DNA of 29,850 nucleotides from a virus. A model generated the notes under the pieces. That model was given only the letters and a program-made list of their open reading frames with translations, did not search any database and was not told where the DNA came from. The position numbers and the translations under genes are program-made. Location of the stretch: the IMG/VR virus record IMGVR_UViG_3300027985_000945, positions 1-29,850 of that record; one strand, 5' to 3'. Numbering within the stretch: the first letter of the stretch is position 1; every line of letters begins with the position of its first letter. Shown piece by piece: positions 10,118-23,999 of this stretch.

Positions 10118-11440
10118 CTACTTCTTACGATTCGATCCACGACGCAAAGCAGCAATCTGATCATCGTATTGAGATGAATCAATTGCACCAGCTTCGTCAA
10201 CATCACCTACTTCTTCAGCTTCAACTTCTTCCGGTGCTTCTTCTTCAAATGGAAGTTCATCTCCGTCTTCCATCAATGCATACCATTCTTTCACGTCAGC
10301 AGCCTTTGTAGGAATTTGATCAACGAAATCTGCACCGTAAACTTTCTTCACGAAACGCTTCAATGCAATTTTCATTTCAGCTGGAGTCATTTCATCTTCT
10401 GCTTCCTCTTTTACAACTGGTTTAGTAGTTGTTTTAGGTGCTTTGGCTGTTCCTTTTTTGTTGAACATATCATCAACGTCTGAATCATCCTTCGGTTTGT
10501 CTTCCGGAACCTCTTTAGACAACGCTTCAATTTCGTCCAAGAATTCTTCATTGTCGAAGATTTGGTATTTGTTTGCATCGTCGAAACGCTTCAGCCCGTC
10601 AAGTGCAAAATCGAAATCACGTTGGGTGTAAACTTTATTGCCGTAGTAATCCGACAATGGCTTTTGTTCCATCAACTTCTCAAGTTGTTCATCGGTGATT
10701 TTAACCCGTTCGAAGAATTGATCCCAGTTTTCACGTCTTGCTTCGCTTGGGATGTCTTTTGACAAGGTGTATTCCCAGCTTGTTGTCGGCTTACCGTCTT
10801 TGTCAAGCTTGTGTTCTTTAGTGATAACCAGCGGATAACCTTCATCCGGATTTGAGAATGGATCAACGGAAATAACTTCATCAGCTTCTTCTTGCATGGC
10901 AATTTTATCCATTTGCTTGATCCAGCTTTCATACATTTCCAATCTACCCAGTTGCCCTTCTTTCAATGCATAAGCAACGAAAGTTGTTGACGGTTTAATA
11001 CCCCAGACCCATCCTTTTGCAGAACGATACCCGGTGACAGGATTCATGAATTTGCGTCGGTCTTCCTTATCAGAGAATTCGTCATTTGCACGCTTATAAA
11101 CGTAATCAATGTAAAGCTCAATAGGATCCTTTGACAAACCACCGTGCTGCGTTGCAATAAAAATTGCTTTACGCTTCACTTCTTTGTCTCCGGTTGGTTC
11201 ACCGTCTTTGTACTTATCAACTTCGCATTCCAGCATGGCTGTTCGCTTCGGCATGTATGCTGCACCAATCTCACAATTGGGGTGTGGTGGCATAATGCGG
11301 AATACGTTTTTACCCTCTTCCACGGAGAAGAAACTAGCCCGACCGTCTGTGTTTGTTTTACTAACTTCTGCTGCCTGTTTTTGGACTTCTTTGTTGGCAG
11401 ACAATTTTGCGCCCTTAAATTTACTTCTATCAAAAGCCAT
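10118..11440 (-). CDS. Single-stranded DNA-binding protein (gp32-like, candidate)
   Basis: A 440-residue protein that opens with MAFDRSKFKGAK, basic, and has a central beta-rich region (NVFRIMPPHP near residue 50 and KGWVWGIKPSTTFVAYAL), followed by a long acidic and glutamate-rich C-terminal region (residues about 320-440) and a final basic RRGSNRKK. This layout matches phage SSBs of the gp32 class in gene context and charge, but no zinc-binding Cys set is visible. The acidic tail is the part that recruits partner proteins in known SSBs. It is directly upstream of Mre11 and RecA. Assigned by layout, not by a diagnostic motif. Confidence 0.7.
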   Translation of the reverse strand: MAFDRSKFKGAKLSANKEVQKQAAEVSKTNTDGRASFFSVEEGKNVFRIMPPHPNCEIGAAYMPKRTAMLECEVDKYKDGEPTGDKEVKRKAIFIATQHGGLSKDPIELYIDYVYKRANDEFSDKEDRRKFMNPVTGYRSAKGWVWGIKPSTTFVAYALKEGQLGRLEMYESWIKQMDKIAMQEEADEVISVDPFSNPDEGYPLVITKEHKLDKDGKPTTSWEYTLSKDIPSEARRENWDQFFERVKITDEQLEKLMEQKPLSDYYGNKVYTQRDFDFALDGLKRFDDANKYQIFDNEEFLDEIEALSKEVPEDKPKDDSDVDDMFNKKGTAKAPKTTTKPVVKEEAEDEMTPAEMKIALKRFVKKVYGADFVDQIPTKAADVKEWYALMEDGDELPFEEEAPEEVEAEEVGDVDEAGAIDSSQYDDQIAALRRGSNRKK

Positions 11441-11466
11441 AATGCTTAAAATTTAATTGTGTATAA

Positions 11467-11991
11467 TTATTTATTTCGAAGATCCGTAATGGATCCGTGT
11501 TTCTTTATTGTCATGTTGTTGATTTTTCCTTCAACAATCTCATTCAAAAATTCTTCAGGGGTAACACCCTTAATCAAATTGTTCAACTTCATATCCTTAC
11601 TTTTAACACCCCACCAAAGGCTTTCTACCAATTCAAAGTTGTAATTCGCAGTGATCATATTTTTCTTTTTGATTTGAAAACCATGGTCAATTATCACCAT
11701 TTCATTTACTGCATTTTCTGTAAGCTTAGAACCTGTTGTAGCAGCCTCCTTGCGAATCCGTTGACGTAAATCAGCTTCAAAAACATCAAGCTCCAATTTC
11801 TTCTCAGAAAGTATCTTTTCAGATTGTGCTTTCAAAGTGCCGATTTGGTTCAACAATGCAGGAACGGTAACGGCTTCACCGTATAAATTTGAAGGATCTA
11901 TTGATGTTAATTGATCTACATCTACTTCCCCTTCAAGGGAATTCATTATAAAAGTAACCAGCTTTCCAGCCAAATAAATTTCTGCTACCAT
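11467..11991 (-). CDS. Hypothetical coiled protein upstream of SSB
   Basis: A longer frame up to 12066 would run through the promoter, so I place the start at the ATG at 11989-11991 (174 residues, MVAEIYLAGKL). A helical segment (about residues 60-90, LKAQSEKILSEKKLELDVF) is followed by KLTENAVNEMVIID and LVESLWWGVKSKDMKLNNL. Proteins of this length and layout often sit next to phage SSB genes and are thought to be recombination mediators, but I do not recognise a named family. It is the first gene of the recombination operon. Confidence 0.75.
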   Translation of the reverse strand: MVAEIYLAGKLVTFIMNSLEGEVDVDQLTSIDPSNLYGEAVTVPALLNQIGTLKAQSEKILSEKKLELDVFEADLRQRIRKEAATTGSKLTENAVNEMVIIDHGFQIKKKNMITANYNFELVESLWWGVKSKDMKLNNLIKGVTPEEFLNEIVEGKINNMTIKKHGSITDLRNK

Positions 11992-15465: not shown

Positions 15466-15963
15466 TTACAAATTGTATTTTGCGAAATAAAATGCCTTTT
15501 CCTCAAGCTCTTTTTTACTACCATCATTATTGATAGTGATGTCGTATTTTGTGTTGTATACATCACGGTCAGCATCATTATCAGGAACTTCAACCCCTTC
15601 CCGTTTAATAAGAATTGTTTTACAACCATAACGGTCTACATATTTCTTGATCTCATCTGATTCCCTAACGTGCAAAAAGACAACAAACGAATCTTCTTCA
15701 ACTTGGTCAATAACCTCGCACCAATGCTTGAAAATACCGTCGTTGTAATTCTTCATTGAAGTCATCAATTCAGCTAAAAATCGTCTACCCCGGTCATCCT
15801 TTTTTCCATCCCAACCTAAGTATTCACTGGCAAGATGCTTGACATGATCTGATGAACGTATGTTGAATACACTCCTTTTGCTGTGTTTATTTACATATTC
15901 AACAAAAGTGTCCTTTCCACTTGTGCCAACCCCGTTTATGATGAACAAATTTTCAGACTTCAT
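15466..15963 (-). CDS. P-loop (deoxy)nucleoside monophosphate kinase
   Basis: A 165-residue kinase. Walker A is GVGTSGKDTF at residues 11-20; the Asp after Lys matches phage dNMP kinases and adenylate-kinase-type folds. RSSDHVKHLASEYLGWDGKKDDRGRR fits a nucleotide-binding/LID segment, and FLHVRES-DEI carries the Walker B strand. Its substrate is probably a deoxynucleoside monophosphate, perhaps the modified hmdUMP, because it follows the thymidylate synthase homologue and the HD nucleotidase. The polymerase gene starts 3 bases after its stop, and it overlaps the HD gene by 11 bases. Confidence 0.75.
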   Translation of the reverse strand: MKSENLFIINGVGTSGKDTFVEYVNKHSKRSVFNIRSSDHVKHLASEYLGWDGKKDDRGRRFLAELMTSMKNYNDGIFKHWCEVIDQVEEDSFVVFLHVRESDEIKKYVDRYGCKTILIKREGVEVPDNDADRDVYNTKYDITINNDGSKKELEEKAFYFAKYNL

Positions 15964-16477
15964 ATGTTTCTACAAATTTTATGATTTTTGTAAATTTGAA
16001 TTCCAGTGAATTTAGAACCTTAATACAATTGTCAACAATCTCTTGAACGAATCTTGTCTTATTACCAATCGCCTGTTCTTCCTTGCAAAAAATCCAAAGA
16101 TCCAACATGTCACATGCTTTGAATAAAGCGAATTGCAAAGGTGTCAATGAACTTTTTATTTCTGCATCACTATATGGCTCAAGCTGGAAATGTCGGCTCA
16201 CCAATTCATCTTCTATTTCTTCCCAAGCCTGTTTTGTGACTTGGCTGAAATTTTTAATCGTGTAAGGAAGATCAGTTGTTTCAACTTCAACGATGTCATG
16301 GTGTAAAACAATATCCCAAACGTTGATATCATACGGAACATTTTCAAGTGAAGCAAAGTGCCGGAACAGCATCCCAACCCCATAGCAGTGTTCCAATAAG
16401 TTGTAAGGACGATTCTTGAATCCCATTGCCATACGGTCAATGTTCTTCATTTTGCGGTAATACTTAATATCTATCAT
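15953..16477 (-). CDS. HD-domain 5'-deoxynucleotidase-like protein (YfbR type)
   Basis: A 174-residue HD phosphohydrolase. Key residues: H30 (LLEHCYGV), the HHD motif at 59-61 and E64 (HHDIVEVETTDLPY), which are the metal-binding set of the YfbR family. YfbR removes 5' phosphate from deoxynucleoside monophosphates. In phages with modified pyrimidines such enzymes can deplete dTMP or dUMP pools, and this position between thymidylate synthase and a nucleotide kinase fits. Only the fold and position are shown here. Confidence 0.85.
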   Translation of the reverse strand: MIDIKYYRKMKNIDRMAMGFKNRPYNLLEHCYGVGMLFRHFASLENVPYDINVWDIVLHHDIVEVETTDLPYTIKNFSQVTKQAWEEIEDELVSRHFQLEPYSDAEIKSSLTPLQFALFKACDMLDLWIFCKEEQAIGNKTRFVQEIVDNCIKVLNSLEFKFTKIIKFVETYEV

Positions 16478-16486
16478 GATTACAAT

Positions 16487-17521
16487 TTAATTATTTATAA
16501 AATCTGCATAGTGCAATTCATTCAAATATGGATTGTTGAACATCACAGGCTTTTTAGTATGGTGATAATATATCACTTTAGCCCAGTCATTGAACAAATC
16601 ATTTCCGGTGTCAATAGTGTATTTTTGCTTGTTTTCACGCAAAGTCTTTTCATAGTGAAACAACGTATCAAGCAAAGAATCTAAATGCTCGAGAGACTCT
16701 ATTTTGTCCTTATAGAAGAACCTCCCCCCAGTCATAAATGCATCCGTTGAATACTTAGCAAAAGATTCAATTTTATCCCTGAAATTTTCATAGAAGTGAA
16801 AGTTGTCAGCTTTCAAATAATAATTACCAACCGGAACGCCAACAATATTGGCAATGTACTCTTGAATCAATGTAAAGTTGAATGTATTCACAGCGGAAAA
16901 TCCCCAAAGTATATCATTGCTACGCATATCAACAATCAAGTCCATTTTACCGTAAGTATTTACTTGAAAGTGCAAGCTACGAGTGCACGGGTAATCTTTT
17001 GTTTCCTTTAAACTTCCATCAATATTGAAGCAATCTTTTGCTGGATCTGCAATTGATATAATTGCTTGCCGTGTGTTGATGTCACGTTTGAAACTTTCAA
17101 TGATGTATTTGAATTGATCTGTTACACCACTTATCCCTGCCATGATATGCCCGTGTTCCCGTTCTGGAATATCGTAATCATTCATGAACCCTGAATAGAA
17201 TCTAAATCTTGGTCCATAACCTGCTCTCCAAGTACGACCATTATCACTGAAATTATACAAATTCTTCACATAATTACCGGGTATTGTGTCCAAATCATTT
17301 AACCCCAAGGCAAGCCAAAGTGACTCAATGAACGGAAGTATCTTATTCCACTTACGTTCATGTATTGTTACATAGCGATCACTTGGATTTGTTATTTGAA
17401 TCATAACCGGGTATGGCATTTCTATGCAATCGAATCCACGTGTTTTCCGGGTTACCCCAGACTTGAGCAGTTCCTTGCTCATACCAACCAATGCTTGGTT
17501 CAGGTTATTGAATGTGTACAT
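16487..17521 (-). CDS. Thymidylate synthase homologue (dTMP synthase or dUMP hydroxymethylase)
   Basis: A 344-residue ThyA-type protein. The nucleophile is C179 in YPCTRSLHFQV, followed by MRSNDILWGFSAVNTFNF (the R-S-x-D phosphate and nucleotide site) and DNFHFYE, which holds the conserved His and Tyr. The Asn in SAVNTF, allowing one inserted residue, matches the uracil-selecting Asn of TS (N177 in E. coli), so a dUMP substrate is more likely than dCMP. Methylation versus hydroxymethylation cannot be told by eye. Because a 5-hmdU kinase-like gene follows in the neighbouring operon, hydroxymethylation to hmdUMP is an attractive inference. It overlaps the gene upstream by 17 bases. Confidence 0.9.
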   Translation of the reverse strand: MYTFNNLNQALVGMSKELLKSGVTRKTRGFDCIEMPYPVMIQITNPSDRYVTIHERKWNKILPFIESLWLALGLNDLDTIPGNYVKNLYNFSDNGRTWRAGYGPRFRFYSGFMNDYDIPEREHGHIMAGISGVTDQFKYIIESFKRDINTRQAIISIADPAKDCFNIDGSLKETKDYPCTRSLHFQVNTYGKMDLIVDMRSNDILWGFSAVNTFNFTLIQEYIANIVGVPVGNYYLKADNFHFYENFRDKIESFAKYSTDAFMTGGRFFYKDKIESLEHLDSLLDTLFHYEKTLRENKQKYTIDTGNDLFNDWAKVIYYHHTKKPVMFNNPYLNELHYADFINN

Positions 17522-17867
17522 TGTATTTTTTTAAAATTGATTCAAATTTTTCTTGTTCAGAAAGCTTAAAGAATATGATGTCAAATGGATATCTTGTCAC
17601 AACAACTTTTATCCCTCTTAGTTCTATCAATTGATATTCAGCACCAGCTGCGTCAATTGATTTTATTGGTTTCAGATACTTGTTAATCATCTCAGTGAAG
17701 CATTGGAATTCTTCCATACTTGATGTGTCTTCACTGGTAACTAAATTAAATTCTTCAAACTTTGCATTCAAAAGTCTACTTACTGCTGTACCTTCTTCAA
17801 GGTTACATTCTTCACCACCATATTCTTCGGTGAGTAAAACTGAAAAATTTTTAATTGGGTATTCCAT
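17505..17867 (-). CDS. Hypothetical protein (120 aa)
   Basis: First gene of the nucleotide/polymerase operon, 20 bases downstream of a promoter-like box. It is acidic at the N-terminus and alternates helix and strand (YQLIELRGIKVVVTRYPFDIIFF near residues 77-99). No family recognised. Its 3' end overlaps the thymidylate synthase start by 17 bases. Confidence 0.65.
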   Translation of the reverse strand: MEYPIKNFSVLLTEEYGGEECNLEEGTAVSRLLNAKFEEFNLVTSEDTSSMEEFQCFTEMINKYLKPIKSIDAAGAEYQLIELRGIKVVVTRYPFDIIFFKLSEQEKFESILKKYNVHIQ

Positions 17868-17930: not shown

Positions 17931-18929
17931 TTATTTCATTTCACCAACTAGCCATTTATCCGGAAATACATAATTGATCTTTTTGTTGTTCTCTTTGAAC
18001 ACTTGTTTGATCCGCTTTCCGGCAACTTTTTTCCCTTCTGTTTCAACTCCAGCTCCCCGTAAATATTTATCTGTCTCGCAAAAGCAGTTAGATAAATCCG
18101 GCACTGTCGGCATATGATTTGCTATTGAATGGAACTTGATGCCGTAGGCGTCACAAAGACTTTCGAAGTTATTTTGCACCCATTTTACGATCTCTTGATA
18201 ATCAGCCTTGCCTGTTATATTAAAACAACGCTCTATACCTCTAATCGTCCCCGGTCCAGCTGCGCAGAAGCTATTATCATCCCAATCCACAAAATTGGTG
18301 TAATTGATATCCTGAATGTATTGATAGGTAGTAAACCCACCGAATGATGTAACAGAAGACATAATGTTGAATGCTTCTTCCATCGTTTTAGCAGCCATGA
18401 TCTCGCTAACTTTACCACCTTCGATCAATTCCCGTTCAAAAATGTAAAAGTAATATTGGTGTTTGCGCCATTTGTTAGCTTTCAAGTGACAATATTTACC
18501 TGTATTTCCTGATAAGAATGCCGAAGTCATCATGTATGCATTTGAATACAACGTATGACCTTCATCAATCTTTTTCACAAGGTAATCCGAAATTTGACCC
18601 AATGACACCCGTGAATCAATGTCACCAAATTCTTCAATAAGCAAATCCCAAGTTGACGGCAAATTGAAATGTTTGTAAATGAGTATTCGCCAGAACATTT
18701 CCTCTGCGGTGTATTCATTACCATTGTAAATTACATGAGTCAACAAATATTGGCTTGCCCGGTCAAGAGCACGGTAAACGTTTGTGAACTTATGTTGCTT
18801 CAAAATCTCATCATTTGTATACGGTGCAGGTTTACCCTCGAAACGGTTCCAAAAAATGTTCATTCGTTCGTTAATCCAATACATGTAATATTGGAAGTTT
18901 GCATTTGGGCTAAAATTTTTCATAGACAT
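17931..18929 (-). CDS. 5-hmdU kinase helical-domain / thymine pyrophosphorylase-superfamily protein
   Basis: A 332-residue helical protein, the last gene of the modification cluster. Motifs: WINERMNIF (18-26), KFTNVYRALDR (47-57), SFGGFTTYQYIQDINY (195-210), AAGPGTIRGIER (223-234) and NCFCETDKYLRG (281-292). I associate this pattern with the proteins described by Iyer and colleagues as 5-hmdU DNA kinase helical domains or alpha-glutamyl/putrescinyl thymine pyrophosphorylases; which of the two I cannot settle. It acts, if so, on DNA carrying 5-hydroxymethyluracil. ATG codons at 18927-18929 and 18921-18923 are both possible; the second overlaps the upstream stop as ATGA. Confidence 0.75.
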   Translation of the reverse strand: MSMKNFSPNANFQYYMYWINERMNIFWNRFEGKPAPYTNDEILKQHKFTNVYRALDRASQYLLTHVIYNGNEYTAEEMFWRILIYKHFNLPSTWDLLIEEFGDIDSRVSLGQISDYLVKKIDEGHTLYSNAYMMTSAFLSGNTGKYCHLKANKWRKHQYYFYIFERELIEGGKVSEIMAAKTMEEAFNIMSSVTSFGGFTTYQYIQDINYTNFVDWDDNSFCAAGPGTIRGIERCFNITGKADYQEIVKWVQNNFESLCDAYGIKFHSIANHMPTVPDLSNCFCETDKYLRGAGVETEGKKVAGKRIKQVFKENNKKINYVFPDKWLVGEMK

Positions 18930-19360
18930 ATCCTATCACAGCTTTCTTTAATTTGCTCAAAAACTTCGTAATACTTTGCCATACCCTTTGAAAATCCTGG
19001 ATCTTTTATTCTGGCTAAATCAATAACCTCCGGCAACAATTCTAATTTTTCTACACCTTCAGACCCGTACTTTCGAATGTAATGTTCTTTATTGTTGCTG
19101 TCCATAATAAACACTCTTTTCGAATTACGAACGATTTCTGGAGTCAACAATTTAGAACGTGTAGTTCTATCGAATTGGATTTCATTTTCATCCAAAATAG
19201 TTCTTGTTTTCTTAGTGATGAGAACCCCGGCACGGCTCTTCACTCCTGCGGCAAATGAATCAACTTTTAAATTTGGGTGAATTTTTTTAAAATAGAATTC
19301 AGCCATTTTAGAACGGTTAACATTTCCGTGGCAAACAAATATTACATCAAATTTCTCCAT
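18920..19360 (-). CDS. Low-molecular-weight phosphatase-like protein
   Basis: A 146-residue protein starting at the ATG at 19358-19360. It has the LMW-PTP phosphate-binding loop CHGNVNRS (C10, R16, S17), equivalent to the usual C-x-GN-x-CRS, and the general acid segment KDPGFSKG (D120 followed by Pro). SFAAGV and MDSNN are other family marks. Family members are tyrosine phosphatases or, in related folds, arsenate reductases. Within this cluster it might dephosphorylate a modified base intermediate or a small metabolite; that is inference. It overlaps the amidoligase gene by 14 bases. Confidence 0.82.
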   Translation of the reverse strand: MEKFDVIFVCHGNVNRSKMAEFYFKKIHPNLKVDSFAAGVKSRAGVLITKKTRTILDENEIQFDRTTRSKLLTPEIVRNSKRVFIMDSNNKEHYIRKYGSEGVEKLELLPEVIDLARIKDPGFSKGMAKYYEVFEQIKESCDRICL

Positions 19361-20282
19361 ATAAATCAGTTTTAGAGATAACACCCTCATTAATTAGATT
19401 ATCGATATTTTCTTTCACTTGGTTTCTTGAATGTTTCCCAACAGAAGTAAGTGACATTATCTGTTGTATTTTATGATTATATTTTGCAAATTCCGGGAAC
19501 ACCATCCAGTAGTTATCAGCAATAATTTCTTTAGGGGAACGCCCTGTATTCAAAGCTGCGTCCATGAATAACGAACACCACATAATGCTTGAATAAATTT
19601 CAGATTTGTCAAATGTCATAGGGAAATGCCTAAATTCAACGGTTGGAGTTTCCTTATACATTTGTAAGAAATTAATCCCACAACGCGTAACCGTCCCCCA
19701 ATAAACAGTGCCGTCTTCCCCTACCGGAGCAAATGATTCAAAAAATTCATCAATGTTTGTAGCCAACATCATTTTGTCATACACCTTTTTGCTCAATTGC
19801 TTTTGGTGCGAAATCTTCCTTCGGTTATACCGTTTTTTAGCTCCTTTGTATTCTTCATCCGTGTCAAATTCCTCTCTTTTTGGTGGAATTAAATCTTCAA
19901 CTATGCTGAAAGCTTCTTTCTGATATTTGAAAACATATGTTGCTAATTTCTTCAAGGCTTCTAAATCATTCCGCAGCCCGTCAACACCAACATGTATATG
20001 CAAATTACAGGTGTGATTTATTGATTTACGGTCACCCAATCTATCGTATATATCAGCAATCAGATCAACTTGTTCCATTACCGTTTTCGTCGGTTTAGTG
20101 TTTATTTCTCCACCAAAAATTATAAACTCTTTTTTAGGATCATTACAAACACCACAAGTGTTTCCGATTGTATAATCTTTACGATCCCAAATACATCCTT
20201 CAGGAAGTTCAACCCTAGTGTCAACATCAGCAATTTCTAATTCGACACCGTATGTAAAACCCTTAATGTTGTAGATACTCAT
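19347..20282 (-). CDS. Amidoligase (COOH-NH2 ligase, glutamine synthetase-like fold)
   Basis: A 311-residue protein with the marks of the Amidoligase_2 family: YGVELEI (11-17), the ATP/metal motif GGEINTKP (57-64), NHTCNLHIHVG (89-99) and VEFRHF (215-220). The family uses ATP to join a carboxylate to an amine. A CGVC pair near residues 43-46 in the N-terminal part is unusual. The gene is coupled to the amino acid:DNA transferase (overlap 20 bases) and the phosphatase, which suggests it builds an amide on the thymine substituent or on its amino acid precursor. The family is clear; the substrate is inference. Confidence 0.88.
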   Translation of the reverse strand: MSIYNIKGFTYGVELEIADVDTRVELPEGCIWDRKDYTIGNTCGVCNDPKKEFIIFGGEINTKPTKTVMEQVDLIADIYDRLGDRKSINHTCNLHIHVGVDGLRNDLEALKKLATYVFKYQKEAFSIVEDLIPPKREEFDTDEEYKGAKKRYNRRKISHQKQLSKKVYDKMMLATNIDEFFESFAPVGEDGTVYWGTVTRCGINFLQMYKETPTVEFRHFPMTFDKSEIYSSIMWCSLFMDAALNTGRSPKEIIADNYWMVFPEFAKYNHKIQQIMSLTSVGKHSRNQVKENIDNLINEGVISKTDLYGEI

Positions 20283-21261
20283 AATATTTTATGTTACCAG
20301 TTTGTAAAAAATATTTCATGTCTTCATTTATAACACCAGTACCCCTTACGGTTCTACTGTCCAAAATTTCTTTACGCCCATCCCAGAGAAGTTCCCATTC
20401 TATTCCATCCCAACCGTCATTTTCGACTGTTTTAATGTCTTCAAATTGCCGGTCTAAGTAATATCCTAAGTAACGTCCCTTACGTTCTCTAAACGTCTTC
20501 TTAAATGCGCATAATGTTGTTTCCAATAAGAACATATCCGGTCTCAATTCAGGGTTTGATTCCTTTACGGAATTAATTACCCTTTTGGCTTCTAAATCCA
20601 ACATTAAAACACGACCTTTGTCCTTTCGCAGCACCTTATCCCCAACCCATTCATCTTCAGCAATTGAATAGCAAAGACCATCACGTTGTGTATGTGTATT
20701 ATCATCAGTCAAAAGCAGATCCCGTGGTTCAACATTCAATCCGCAAGTTTCCTTTAATGTCTGAATGTAAAACCAAGCTGAATATCTTCCGAATTTATAA
20801 AAGTTTTTGATGATGTATTTATACAGCCTGTCAAAGTTTTCGTATGGATCTTTACTGCTGCAAATTGATTCAAAAAACTCCTTTTGTGTGGAATTATTCT
20901 TTAAGATATTTTCACGGTAGGATTCAAACATTTTTGGTAAATGCCCCTTCTGCCATTTCTGATCAGACTGGTATCTCAACCGTTTATAGTTCTCGCTATT
21001 CCATGTTGTTAAACGTTCCAAATCTACGTTTTCGAAATCAGGGAATTCATTAGCAATCACCCAAGCAGTAGCTAATTGGTAAGTGTTCCCGTAAAGCCAA
21101 GCAACCCAATATCTTTGTTCGATATTCAGTTCCATCCTTTCATTGATGTAATTCAATAAAAACAAAGCTGGATCACAATCGTAAAATTTCAAAGACCAAG
21201 TGAAGTACTTGTCCAAATATTCCCGTCTGGTTTCTTTATCTTTCACCCTGTAATCTTTCAT
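20263..21261 (-). CDS. Amino acid:DNA transferase-like (alpha-glutamyl/putrescinyl thymine pyrophosphorylase superfamily)
   Basis: A 332-residue mostly helical protein. Recognisable blocks are YINERM (38-43), RYWVAWLYGNTYQ (50-62), KFGRYSAWFYIQTL (156-169), LTDDNTHTQRDG (174-185), and ETTLCAFKK with GRYLGYYLDRQ (247-272). This is the pattern I recall for proteins that replace the (pyro)phosphate on 5-hydroxymethyl-dU in DNA with an amino acid or amine (ADDT, in SP10/ViI-type pathways). It overlaps the amidotransferase gene as ATGA and the amidoligase by 20 bases. Recognised by motifs from memory; the donor amino acid is unknown. Confidence 0.75.
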   Translation of the reverse strand: MKDYRVKDKETRREYLDKYFTWSLKFYDCDPALFLLNYINERMELNIEQRYWVAWLYGNTYQLATAWVIANEFPDFENVDLERLTTWNSENYKRLRYQSDQKWQKGHLPKMFESYRENILKNNSTQKEFFESICSSKDPYENFDRLYKYIIKNFYKFGRYSAWFYIQTLKETCGLNVEPRDLLLTDDNTHTQRDGLCYSIAEDEWVGDKVLRKDKGRVLMLDLEAKRVINSVKESNPELRPDMFLLETTLCAFKKTFRERKGRYLGYYLDRQFEDIKTVENDGWDGIEWELLWDGRKEILDSRTVRGTGVINEDMKYFLQTGNIKYYEYLQH

Positions 21262-21980
21262 ACAACTTTTTTATATCGTTTTACACATTCTAAATTTGGA
21301 TTCTGCCATTCATGTAAGTCATTTGATCCATTATAGACAGTTACGCCACCTTCCATAAATGCTGAATACGTAGCTCCATTTATGCATTCTATTAAATCTT
21401 GAGTAATCCCAAACTTTGAGAAAGCCCGTTCTAAAATATTCTTAGTACTTGCAATGAATACTGATTTACCAATAATTGAATACCAAAGTGGTCTATTCCC
21501 GTTCCGGTAGAACAAAATGCCACGGCTCGTCAACTCAATCACAGCCATGCTTGATCTATTGAACTCTGAAAGTGGATCTAATTCCTCCTTAGAAGCTCTA
21601 AAAATCAATTCTGAATCATTTGCTGTAACACAGTTAAAGCCGAATCTTTCATGCCATTTAGACGGATCTTCTTGTGTTACAACCCCGTTATGTACGATTG
21701 ATAAATCGTCATCGCTTATCGGTTGATTATAACGTAAATCTGAAGTGCTATAACGGGCATGTGCAATAACTGCACATTTACCCGTCAAGTCAACCTTACT
21801 CAATAAATCCCGGATAGGATAAGAACCCTTCACTGTTGAAATGTGGTCATTCTCAATGAATGATACCCCTGAAGCATGCTTGCCCCTAATTTGAGATTGC
21901 CACATTATTTCTTCAAGCAAATCTAAATCTTGTTTAGACTGCTTCCCTTCTGAATTCAAGTACCCTATTACCCCGCACAT
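21258..21980 (-). CDS. Class II glutamine amidotransferase (free-standing)
   Basis: A 240-residue Ntn-type glutaminase domain. The nucleophile is C2 (MCGVIGY, needs Met removal), followed by RGKHASG (32-38), HARYST (74-79), NQP (85-87), the oxyanion HNG (97-99) and NDSE (121-124). The domain ends near residue 240 with no synthetase or isomerase domain, unlike AsnB or GlmS. It would free ammonia from glutamine for a separate acceptor enzyme; the amidoligase two genes downstream is the natural candidate. Starts at TAATG after the kinase. Confidence 0.93.
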   Translation of the reverse strand: MCGVIGYLNSEGKQSKQDLDLLEEIMWQSQIRGKHASGVSFIENDHISTVKGSYPIRDLLSKVDLTGKCAVIAHARYSTSDLRYNQPISDDDLSIVHNGVVTQEDPSKWHERFGFNCVTANDSELIFRASKEELDPLSEFNRSSMAVIELTSRGILFYRNGNRPLWYSIIGKSVFIASTKNILERAFSKFGITQDLIECINGATYSAFMEGGVTVYNGSNDLHEWQNPNLECVKRYKKVV

Positions 21981-22696
21981 TACTGGAAATTTTCGAATTT
22001 GTTCTTATTTATGTAATCAAACTCCTCCGTGAATTTGATGAAGTCTGCTGTCTCGAAACGGTCATCATTCATAAGTACTATGAGTTTAGAACCGAAATCG
22101 AAAATTGGAGTTTTGAAGTCATTCTCAAAAACATTTATGAAAGACTCATCAGTGCATTGAGCCAGCTCCTTCCGTGAGAATTTGCAGTCGTTTATAAACC
22201 CAATATTCTTATCCCACATCACATCCTTTTTCGGCTTCTCACCACTACGGTAAATGATCCGGTTATAATATTCCTGTTTTCCATCTTCCGGGTAATTGTA
22301 ATACTGAATTAAAATGTCCTCGAACCCAATTTCCTGTAGGAACTTTGGACGCAAACGATGTGTTTGAGTTATACCAGCCCCTTCAACGATGAATGAATAT
22401 TTGTCAAGGTTTTCTTTCAAGAATTTACTGAAGTATTCAGCTTTCTTGAAAGCTCCTGTTACAGCATCATAACCTTGCCAACGTTCAACTTCTCCGCTAC
22501 GGTAAATCTTACCAACGAAGATCAAATTCAATTCTTCAACTAATACACCAATGATTTTTTCTTTTTCCTCAACATTAGTGTATTTGAAATCTGAAAGTGT
22601 TAATCCACAACTTTCAAAGAACTTCAATAATTGGAAAACTCTGGAAGATTTTCCACTTCCAGAGATTCCTTTTGCTATAAAAATGCTTTTGATCAT
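21980..22696 (-). CDS. P-loop kinase, probable 5-hydroxymethyl-dU DNA kinase
   Basis: A 238-residue kinase with Walker A GISGSGKSS at residues 10-18, the segment FVGKIYRSGEVERWQGYDAV (60-79), and VEGAGIT (104-110) as the acidic strand. The ELNLIFVGK followed by a basic, Ser/Gly-Trp loop is what I recall of 5-HMUDK kinases from hypermodified thymine phages (where the loop reads SNKSG-SWTSMD). It would phosphorylate 5-hydroxymethyl-dU in DNA. Alternative: a general polynucleotide kinase. Overlaps TAATG with the genes on both sides; the helical partner domain is in a separate gene (17931-18929). Confidence 0.75.
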   Translation of the reverse strand: MIKSIFIAKGISGSGKSSRVFQLLKFFESCGLTLSDFKYTNVEEKEKIIGVLVEELNLIFVGKIYRSGEVERWQGYDAVTGAFKKAEYFSKFLKENLDKYSFIVEGAGITQTHRLRPKFLQEIGFEDILIQYYNYPEDGKQEYYNRIIYRSGEKPKKDVMWDKNIGFINDCKFSRKELAQCTDESFINVFENDFKTPIFDFGSKLIVLMNDDRFETADFIKFTEEFDYINKNKFENFQ

Positions 22697-23460
22697 TATT
22701 CTACGATTTTGATTCCACCAACAGCTTTGAAGTAAACTTTGCTGCCGGATTTAATTCGACATTTCTCTTTTGTTGTTTTGTTCTCAATGAAGATCCGGGT
22801 AATGGTACCTTCAAGTTTTACACCGCTAACTTCAAACGAAACCTTCACCCCAACAGAAAATGTATCATTGCCTGTGAATTTCTCAATAGTTTCACTCTTA
22901 GCATCAGAACTACCTTCAGCCTTTGGAGCCTTTGGTGTTTTTGGAGTTTTGGGGGTTTTCGGTGTTTCAGGTTCAGCCGTAGCTTTTAGCTCTTCTTTCT
23001 TCACCTCCGGTTTTGCTACTTCTGCAGGTTTCTTAACACCTTTAAAAGTCAATGCCTCATGCAATTGTTCTTTTGTGGCATTTACAAGCAGTTCTTCAAT
23101 ATCCGAAGCTGAGTGTCCACCAAGTGCCTTCATGACTTGTTCAAAAACACCTTGACGGTTAGCTGCAACCAATACATCCAAGAATTCATCAACCTCTTTG
23201 ATCAAGGCTTTGTTTGAATCATCAACTTTTGGTTCCGGTTTCTCAACTTCAGCAACTTCTTCTACCACTTCTGGTTCAGCCTTAATTTCTTCTGAAATTT
23301 TTTCGATAGCCACTTCAGCAGGTTTGAATGCTGAAACATCTTGACCACGAGAGGAAAGTATCTCAATAATACAATCAAGTTCATCACCACTTACTTTTGT
23401 TACTTTTTTCAACAATGCATCAGTAGTGTACTTTTTTAGTTTTTTAGTTAAAGCTTCCAT
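22696..23460 (-). CDS. Linker-rich hypothetical protein, first gene of the modification operon
   Basis: I place the start at ATG 23458-23460 (254 residues); a frame from 23469 starts with TTG. A helical N-terminus is followed by a long acidic, Glu/Lys/Pro/Val region, then a helical segment (residues about 85-140), a linker with four consecutive Thr/Ala-Pro-Lys repeats (PKTPKTPKTPKAPKA), and a C-terminal beta-rich domain (SVGVKVSFEVSGVKLEGTI onward) that looks like a small SH3/KOW-type barrel. The proline/lysine repeats are in a region of simple DNA sequence at 22921-22970. Function unknown; its position suggests a DNA-binding or scaffold part of the modification pathway. Confidence 0.7.
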   Translation of the reverse strand: MEALTKKLKKYTTDALLKKVTKVSGDELDCIIEILSSRGQDVSAFKPAEVAIEKISEEIKAEPEVVEEVAEVEKPEPKVDDSNKALIKEVDEFLDVLVAANRQGVFEQVMKALGGHSASDIEELLVNATKEQLHEALTFKGVKKPAEVAKPEVKKEELKATAEPETPKTPKTPKTPKAPKAEGSSDAKSETIEKFTGNDTFSVGVKVSFEVSGVKLEGTITRIFIENKTTKEKCRIKSGSKVYFKAVGGIKIVE

Positions 23461-23505
23461 GATTTTCAATTTTAAATTTGTTTACGATTTATATTTATTA
23501 CACTA

Positions 23506-23537
23506 CAAAGATAAAATGTTTATTTGAAATATAAAAA
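23506..23537 (-). promoter_or_regulatory. Promoter candidate for the modification operon
   Basis: Minus-strand TATCTTTG (23506-23513) matches the Bacteroidota TAnnTTTG box, with TAGTGTAAT after it, identical to the site at 3027-3034. A T-run (23533-23537) lies 19 bases upstream. The 5' leader would be about 40 bases to the ATG at 23460. It is the only promoter-like site seen before the six coupled genes and is not shared with the dUTPase gene upstream. Confidence 0.6.
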
Positions 23538-23558: not shown

Positions 23559-23999
23559 TTATTTTTTACCGGTGTGACCAAATCCACCCTCGCCACGGTC
23601 TGTTTCATCCAAGATATCAACCATATTCCAGCTGACAGTCTCGTGTTTAGCAATTACCATTTGGCAAATACGTTCACCATGCTCAAGTATGAAATCTTCT
23701 TTCGATAGGTTTATTAATATGATACCAATTTCGCCACGATAATCAGCATCGATAGTTCCGGGTGAATTCAATACTGTTATACCTTTCTTCAATGCTAATC
23801 CACTACGTGGTCTTATTTGTGCTTCGTAGCCTTCTGGTAACTCAATGAATAATCCTGTTGAGACAAGTACTCTTGACATTGGTTTAATAGTTATAGCCTT
23901 ATCAACTGGAATATTAGCACGCACATCCATTCCTGCGGATAAATGCGTAGCATACTTTGGCAAATCATTAAATGATTTATTGACGATTTTTACTTCCAT
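23559..23999 (-). CDS. dut: dUTP diphosphatase (trimeric dUTPase)
   Basis: A 146-residue dUTPase. All five motifs are present: AGMD (22-25), RPRSG (63-67), [10 protein letters not shown] (81-90), GERICQMV (108-115) and [10 protein letters not shown] (135-144). It converts dUTP to dUMP, limiting uracil incorporation and supplying the substrate of the thymidylate synthase homologue, a useful step in a phage that replaces thymine. A GC-rich hairpin sits in its leader at 24019-24038. It does not overlap its neighbours. Confidence 0.97.

Follow-up and report, generated by a model that had tools for sequence, protein, structure and literature searches.

A phage gene block predicted to install and acylate an amine on thymine through a glutamine amidotransferase and an amidoligase

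A coupled block of predicted thymidine-hypermodification genes

We analysed the 29,850-base IMG/VR virus record IMGVR_UViG_3300027985_000945 (the window), a fragment from an uncultivated phage, in which six minus-strand genes lie at 17931-22696. From the upstream end they encode a P-loop 5-hydroxymethyl-deoxyuridine (5-hmdU) DNA kinase, a class II glutamine amidotransferase domain (GAT2), an amino acid:DNA transferase (ADDT), an amidoligase, a low-molecular-weight-phosphatase-like protein (LMWP) and HMUDK_hel, a helical kinase protein. All six exceed the Pfam curated cut-offs and, with the LMWP gene starting at ATG 19360, successive genes overlap by 1, 4, 20, 14 and 10 nt, which bears out the families and the overlaps of 1-20 bases named in an initial annotation of this DNA. 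Judged by its sequence, the operon shares the core of the thymidine-hypermodification clusters of phages M6, ViI and PaMx11; the amino-acid tailoring enzyme usual in those clusters is missing in the window. We think it reasonably probable that these genes form a thymidine-hypermodification operon in which 5-hmdU is phosphorylated, ammonia displaces the phosphate and the amidoligase N-acylates the resulting amine.

The block is longer than the six genes first described. An open reading frame (ORF) of 257 aa that shares 1 nt with the kinase gene heads the coupled run, and a 120-aa ORF, a thymidylate-synthase (TS)-like hydroxymethylase, a YfbR-like protein and a deoxynucleoside monophosphate (dNMP) kinase follow downstream (Table 1). 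The proposal that the six genes stand behind one promoter is not supported, as the run starts one gene earlier and scans of the window for sigma-70-like words and for TTTG-N-TANNTTTG/TANNTTTG gave chance level only; because of this we make no promoter claim. The terminase of the window has its closest matches in a phage contig from human faeces (54%) and in Bacteroides phages (36%), and for this reason the host is probably a member of the Bacteroidota.

Table 1. Features of the hypermodification block and its neighbours, in window coordinates
Feature	Position	Strand	Evidence and remarks
P-loop 5-hmdU DNA kinase (HMUD2 family)	21980..22696	-	PF18747 E 9e-27; Walker A GISGSGKS near N-terminus
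Class II glutamine amidotransferase domain (GAT2)	21258..21980	-	GATase_6 PF13522 E 1e-8; motifs intact
ADDT, predicted 5-phosphomethyl-dU transferase, GAT2-associated clade	20263..21261	-	PF18724 E 8e-20
Amidoligase, proposed N-acylating ligase	19347..20282	-	Amidoligase_2 PF12224 E 5e-7; 30.3 bits against a cut-off of 22
LMW-phosphatase-like protein (LMWP)	18920..19360	-	LMWPc PF01451 E 3e-14; ORF may open at 19390, ATG 19360 favoured
HMUDK_hel, helical subunit of 5-hmdU DNA kinase	17931..18929	-	PF18723 E 6e-77; 62% identity to L051
120-aa ORF, no family match	17505..17867	-	Position kept in L052, L057
TS-like pyrimidine hydroxymethylase, dUMP type	16487..17521	-	C179, N212 present; 31% identity to SPO1 gp29
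YfbR-like 5'-deoxynucleotidase	15953..16477	-	PF12917 E 5e-18; occupies HD-protein place of M6/PaMx11
dNMP kinase-like, candidate hmdUMP kinase	15466..15963	-	phrog_139 E 3e-14; PF21448 under cut-off
257-aa ORF, first of coupled run, no family match	22696..23469	-	Kept in L051, L052, L057
dUTPase, upstream neighbour, fits dUTP exclusion	23559..23999	-	Translation; homologues adjoin cluster in L052
Candidate Bacteroidota -7 promoter word TATCTTTG	23506..23513	-	In 89-nt gap 5' of run; words not above chance

The probable starting base and a putative split kinase

The hydroxymethylase matches SPO1 gp29, which is annotated as a dUMP hydroxymethylase, as well as the enzymes of M6 and ViI-like phages. 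Its Cys179 and Asn212 are invariant across SPO1, M6, PaMx11, phage Simon, L051 (a locus of the comparative set described below) and the window, and MilA, a CMP hydroxymethylase in the Protein Data Bank (PDB), has Asp aligned with Asn212. Within this enzyme family, Asn at that site reads uracil and Asp reads cytosine. Because the uracil-reading residue is kept, the predicted product is most likely 5-hydroxymethyl-dUMP (hmdUMP) and thymine is most likely the base that is replaced.

The P-loop kinase is 52-58% identical to its counterparts in L051, L052 and L057 and 25% identical to the ADDT-adjoining kinase of a ViI-like phage. In M6 and PaMx11 the HMUDK_hel gene directly follows the P-loop kinase gene, and in the window these genes form the two ends of the six-gene block. 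Profile searches, which the initial annotation had proposed as a check, place both components in the expected families far over the cut-offs (P-loop, PF18747; helical, PF18723), in separate genes; a PDB sequence search with HMUDK_hel gave no match. The second helical protein is more plausibly one half of a split enzyme, its helical part, than a separate second kinase: by analogy with M6 and PaMx11, the two proteins probably make up a single two-gene 5-hmdU kinase.

A comparative set of loci

Viral contigs were scanned for related loci. A single amidoligase sequence retrieved no loci, whereas an alignment of three amidoligases (window, phage Simon and Vibrio phage 2.275.O) retrieved 46; alignments of ADDT and HMUDK_hel retrieved up to 80 each. 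The ADDT scan used GAT2-clade seeds and its best 80 loci were kept, so that our counts describe the GAT2 clade, not all phages. Removal of duplicates left 182 loci (L numbers), which were annotated with profiles built in this analysis; ADDT is present in 129 of them, and flanks are long enough to read an absence in 71 (covered loci). Near-copies were thinned for the tree only. LMWP counts come from domain-level matches to a profile rebuilt with clean seeds, since an LMWP-kinase fusion in L005 otherwise draws in kinases, and public phage sequences were left out of the alignments for structure prediction. As expected, the profiles recovered ADDT, an FAD enzyme, a GNAT acetyltransferase, kinase, HMUDK_hel, TS and HD proteins in PaMx11, and found no GAT2, amidoligase or LMWP in M6 and a ViI-like phage. 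The gene set of the window recurs across many divergent viral contigs.

GAT2 as probable partner of the DNA transferase

GAT2 starts with Met-Cys, which supplies the N-terminal Cys nucleophile, and its HARYSTS, NG and ND motifs are intact and invariant in the alignment. The Met-Cys start is found in 74 of 77 homologues, two others having VC with a GTG start and one being truncated. The top NCBIfam match is purF and the best family matches are PurF, AsnB and GlmS, all ammonia-channelling; a PDB search with the single sequence gave no matches, and the profile matches GlmS and PurF structures. In PurF, glutamine-derived ammonia displaces a phosphate leaving group.

The initial annotation had called the next gene transferase-like, and structure prediction agrees: the AlphaFold model of the ADDT (pLDDT 95.7) has as its sole real PDB match the PaMx11 5-phosphomethyl-dU (5-PmdU) glycinyltransferase (8z2m/8z2n, probability 1.00), although a PDB search with the window sequence found no matches. 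According to the titles of these entries, the ADDT relatives act on 5-PmdU, and PaMx11 gp46 matches 8z2m, titled 'Glycinyltransferase', along all 292 residues. The window ADDT lies outside the gp46 clade, in a separate GAT2-associated clade. We therefore file it as like the 5-PmdU glycinyltransferase (PUGT) rather than as PUGT proper, with a putative donor.

In a 74-row ADDT tree, one branch with support 100/98 splits GAT2-associated from FAD-associated rows, a count that leaves aside rows of neither group, some of which lie inside the GAT2 side. Over the 48 covered rows, GAT2 changes 2 times, the FAD enzyme 4, amidoligase and GNAT 9 each and LMWP 11. Among 45 covered GAT2 loci the amidoligase is present in 29 and absent from 16, with GNAT in 13 of those 16. 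In L167 (5280-7268) a single ORF of 662 aa spans GAT2 and ADDT; the locus also has kinase, HMUDK_hel and TS genes and no amidoligase. A scan of bacterial genome contigs returned three flanked Bacteroidales metagenome-assembled genome (MAG) contigs with GAT2-ADDT-kinase and a 4-nt GAT2/ADDT overlap, and the amidoligase is absent from all three. Because of the fusion, the single clade, the small number of changes on the tree and these triads without amidoligase, GAT2 most likely partners ADDT rather than the amidoligase, and ammonia, not an amino acid, is most likely what is installed.

The minimal triads themselves (L218:6366-8439, L219 and L220:6351-8502) lie on Prevotella and Phocaeicola MAG contigs and have no acylation gene by the profiles used.

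No ADDT locus has both GAT2 and the DAO-family FAD enzyme (0 of 129). 5-Aminomethyl-dU is the most likely end product of the FAD route; GAT2 could be an alternative to that route and, with ADDT, reach the same base in one step. Within the window, itself a fragment, our profiles find none of the FAD, radical-SAM (rSAM) or PALP tailoring enzymes; GAT2 is present instead.

An amidoligase found with four putative amine routes

The amidoligase model (pLDDT 95.7) has as its leading PDB fold matches only members of the glutamate-cysteine ligase (GCL)/glutamine synthetase (GS)/PafA/Dop superfamily; a PDB sequence search gave no matches. Across 42 sequences the ExE motif, D48, E59, H97, R200, N204, E216 and R218 are invariant. 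In the 69 loci with an amidoligase, it accompanies GAT2 and ADDT in 43, the FAD enzyme in 13 and an M6-type pair of rSAM and PALP enzymes in 3 (L028, L029 and L049); in L029 the rSAM, PALP and ADDT proteins are 57%, 45% and 39% identical to M6 gp53, gp52 and gp51. Six loci lack an amine route: L033, L091 and L126 are cut off to the left near the cluster, and L038, L041 and L042 belong to other phages, without ADDT. Two of the latter (L038:9962-12597 and L042:9998-14080) carry tandem or fused Amidoligase_2 copies that adjoin a methyltransferase-like gene.

In Vibrio phage 2.275.O (L003:11887-16147), the same amidoligase subfamily lies near a two-domain QueF, QueC, GAT2 and FolE. The product of QueF is preQ1, an aminomethyl base, and the gene content suggests that the DNA of this phage carries an acylated preQ1-type deazaguanine. 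QueF and QueF-L are difficult to distinguish by sequence (PMC6884629). Each of the four routes (GAT2 with ADDT, FAD, rSAM with a PLP enzyme, and QueF) would end in a base-borne primary amine. Since the FAD, rSAM/PLP and QueF products should have an amine and no carboxylate, the amidoligase is expected to N-acylate rather than to amidate a base-borne acid.

An acetyltransferase occupies the place of the amidoligase in PaMx11 and in L051, where it is fused to ADDT (L051:3477-5060); the slot for the acylation step is swappable between the two enzymes. The earlier suggestion that the amidoligase makes an amide thus gains strength, both from this shared slot and from the recurrence of the enzyme with four amine routes.

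A phosphatase-like protein tied to the amidoligase

The LMWP has the CHGNVNRS loop (CX5R[ST]) and the DP general acid of LMW protein tyrosine phosphatases, and is an intact candidate phosphatase. All 36 homologues have DP and 35 have the loop; the one without it is probably missing its N-terminus. LMWP never occurs without the amidoligase in the 129 ADDT loci and never together with GNAT; the covered amidoligase loci divide into 22 with LMWP, 16 with GNAT and 4 with neither. Fusions join it to the amidoligase in L028 (9671-11350) and to the kinase in L005 (3211-4260). LMWP may thus act with or after the amidoligase, for example on a phosphorylated acyl group, and this is the weakest step of the mechanism proposed below.

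We also considered a role in clearing unreacted 5-PmdU. This is disfavoured, because LMWP would then be expected without the amidoligase too.

A proposed pathway and its alternatives

In the pathway that we favour, the TS-like enzyme would make hmdUMP, which after phosphorylation would enter the DNA as 5-hmdU. The P-loop protein and HMUDK_hel would phosphorylate 5-hmdU in DNA to 5-PmdU. GAT2 would free ammonia from glutamine and hand it to ADDT, displacing the phosphate to give 5-aminomethyl-dU, that is, PurF chemistry on DNA. The ATP-dependent amidoligase would then form an amide bond between the amine and a carboxylic acid, which is probably an amino acid, and LMWP, with or after it, would perhaps strip a phosphate from the attached group. 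The finished base may protect the DNA from host nucleases.

Several observations weigh against this pathway. The ADDT model is only 12-13% identical to the glycinyltransferase (TM 0.55-0.64), and the amidoligase reaches a TM of just 0.42 to its top PDB match. L003 and L004 carry GAT2 and amidoligase without ADDT, so the two can be partners of each other elsewhere, and L059, L110 and L167 have GAT2 and ADDT but neither GNAT nor amidoligase. The clusters of most GAT2-clade relatives are of the TET/JBP kind and lack the hydroxymethylase and HMUDK_hel, and because of this the modified base may differ there. The contigs are fragmentary, and the ADDT scan began from GAT2-clade sequences.

The adjoining GAT2 and amidoligase genes of L003 and L004 would fit a different division of labour, in which ADDT, like its counterparts in M6, ViI and PaMx11, adds an amino acid, and a GAT2-fed amidoligase turns the carboxylate of that amino acid into a carboxamide; some CmoY-family members are proposed to amidate a base-borne carboxylate in an ammonia-dependent way (PMC12783734). 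We regard this as unlikely, since GAT2 stays with ADDT in the 16 covered loci and three minimal MAG loci that lack the amidoligase, is fused to ADDT in one ORF, and is missing from the 13 FAD and 3 rSAM and PALP loci in which the amidoligase occurs and no carboxylate is expected. Slightly less likely still is that the amidoligase joins a second amino acid to one added by ADDT, with GAT2 an accessory glutaminase or gamma-glutamyl transferase. The family and fold of ADDT are those of amino acid:DNA transferases, and among the top fold matches of the amidoligase are glutamate-cysteine ligases, enzymes that link one amino acid to another; against this, GAT2 swaps one for one with the FAD enzyme and best matches ammonia-channelling proteins. 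That GAT2, amidoligase and LMWP form an unrelated module, for example for protein or metabolite modification, is very improbable: Amidoligase_2 and GAT2 do occur outside thymine-modification clusters (L004, L038, L042), but dozens of divergent loci have the set in the midst of ADDT, kinase and hydroxymethylase or TET genes, and it includes the fusions in L028, L005 and L167.

Relation to known systems

In PaMx11, gp46-gp52 are the 5-PmdU glycinyltransferase, FAD enzyme, acetyltransferase, kinase, HMUDK_hel, hydroxymethylase and HD protein. The window shares with it the kinase halves, transferase fold, hydroxymethylase and HD protein, and the logic of an amine placed on the base and then capped; it differs in having GAT2 in place of the FAD enzyme, amidoligase and LMWP in place of the acetyltransferase, and an ADDT of another clade. 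M6 gp51-gp59 have the same order of ADDT, kinase, HMUDK_hel, hydroxymethylase and HD protein; unlike the window, that cluster contains rSAM and PALP enzymes and no GAT2, amidoligase or LMWP. ViI-like Ackermannviridae likewise have an HMUD2-type kinase adjoining ADDT, but that ADDT is only about 26% identical, and GAT2, amidoligase and LMWP are not found nearby. The modified bases of these phages are 5-(2-aminoethyl)-dU in M6 and 5-(2-aminoethoxy)methyl-dU in ViI-like Ackermannviridae. The unannotated phage Simon (PQ683277) comes close in its amidoligase (34% identical), LMWP, split kinase, hydroxymethylase, YfbR protein and gene order; it has an FAD oxidoreductase for GAT2, giving FAD-amidoligase-LMWP, and an ADDT of the FAD clade.

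5-Carboxymethylcytosine already provides a known case of amide ligation to a DNA base, with an asparagine-synthetase-type ligase (PMC12783734). This CmoX/CmoY system resembles our proposal in that a DNA base gains an amide bond in an ATP-dependent step, but it acts on the carboxymethyl group of cytosine, whereas we propose a GS/GCL-fold ligase and a thymine-derived base.

The GATase-transferase-amidoligase set is absent from all 50,697 phage records that were searched. The best ADDT match there is about 27% identical, and the amidoligase matches three records only, of which one, phage Simon, has it in a thymine cluster. For these two reasons, the common laboratory phages would lack this chemistry. 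The GATase-linked transferase together with the GS-fold ligase suggests a new variant of thymidine hypermodification, of which an earlier mention in the literature is possible.

In most GAT2-ADDT clusters (L009, L012, L014, L018-L025 and others) a TET/JBP dioxygenase (PF12851) substitutes for the hydroxymethylase, and several contain inserted glycosyltransferases (PF00534; TAGT, PF20691). A TET-GAT2-GT-amidoligase-LMWP cluster in L020 carries, between ADDT and kinase, a flavin-dependent tryptophan-halogenase family protein (10139-11614; PF04820 E 8e-93), so a halogenated DNA base is possible. The gene content of the TET/JBP clusters suggests a large uncultivated family of amine-based hypermodifications.

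Implications

A bolder generalization, which we hold tentatively and at somewhat less than even chances, is that GAT2-ADDT is a DNA-base amidotransferase which attaches glutamine-derived ammonia straight to a phosphorylated pyrimidine in DNA, that the GS-fold amidoligase aminoacylates the base, that LMWP trims a phosphorylated acyl group, and that the whole is a widespread class of aminoacyl-thymine DNA, with perhaps aminoacyl-cytosine in the TET/JBP clusters. The fusions in L005 (LMWP with kinase), L028 (amidoligase with LMWP), L051 (ADDT with GNAT) and L167 (GAT2 with ADDT) are useful expression targets. If the proposed pathway is true, it would give phages a third route to a thymine amine, besides flavin lyases and rSAM/PLP enzymes, that uses ammonia instead of an amino acid. 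It would add a ligase that attaches new groups to DNA through amide bonds, with specific new nucleosides predicted, would give LMW phosphatases a role in DNA modification and would provide enzymes usable for DNA labelling.

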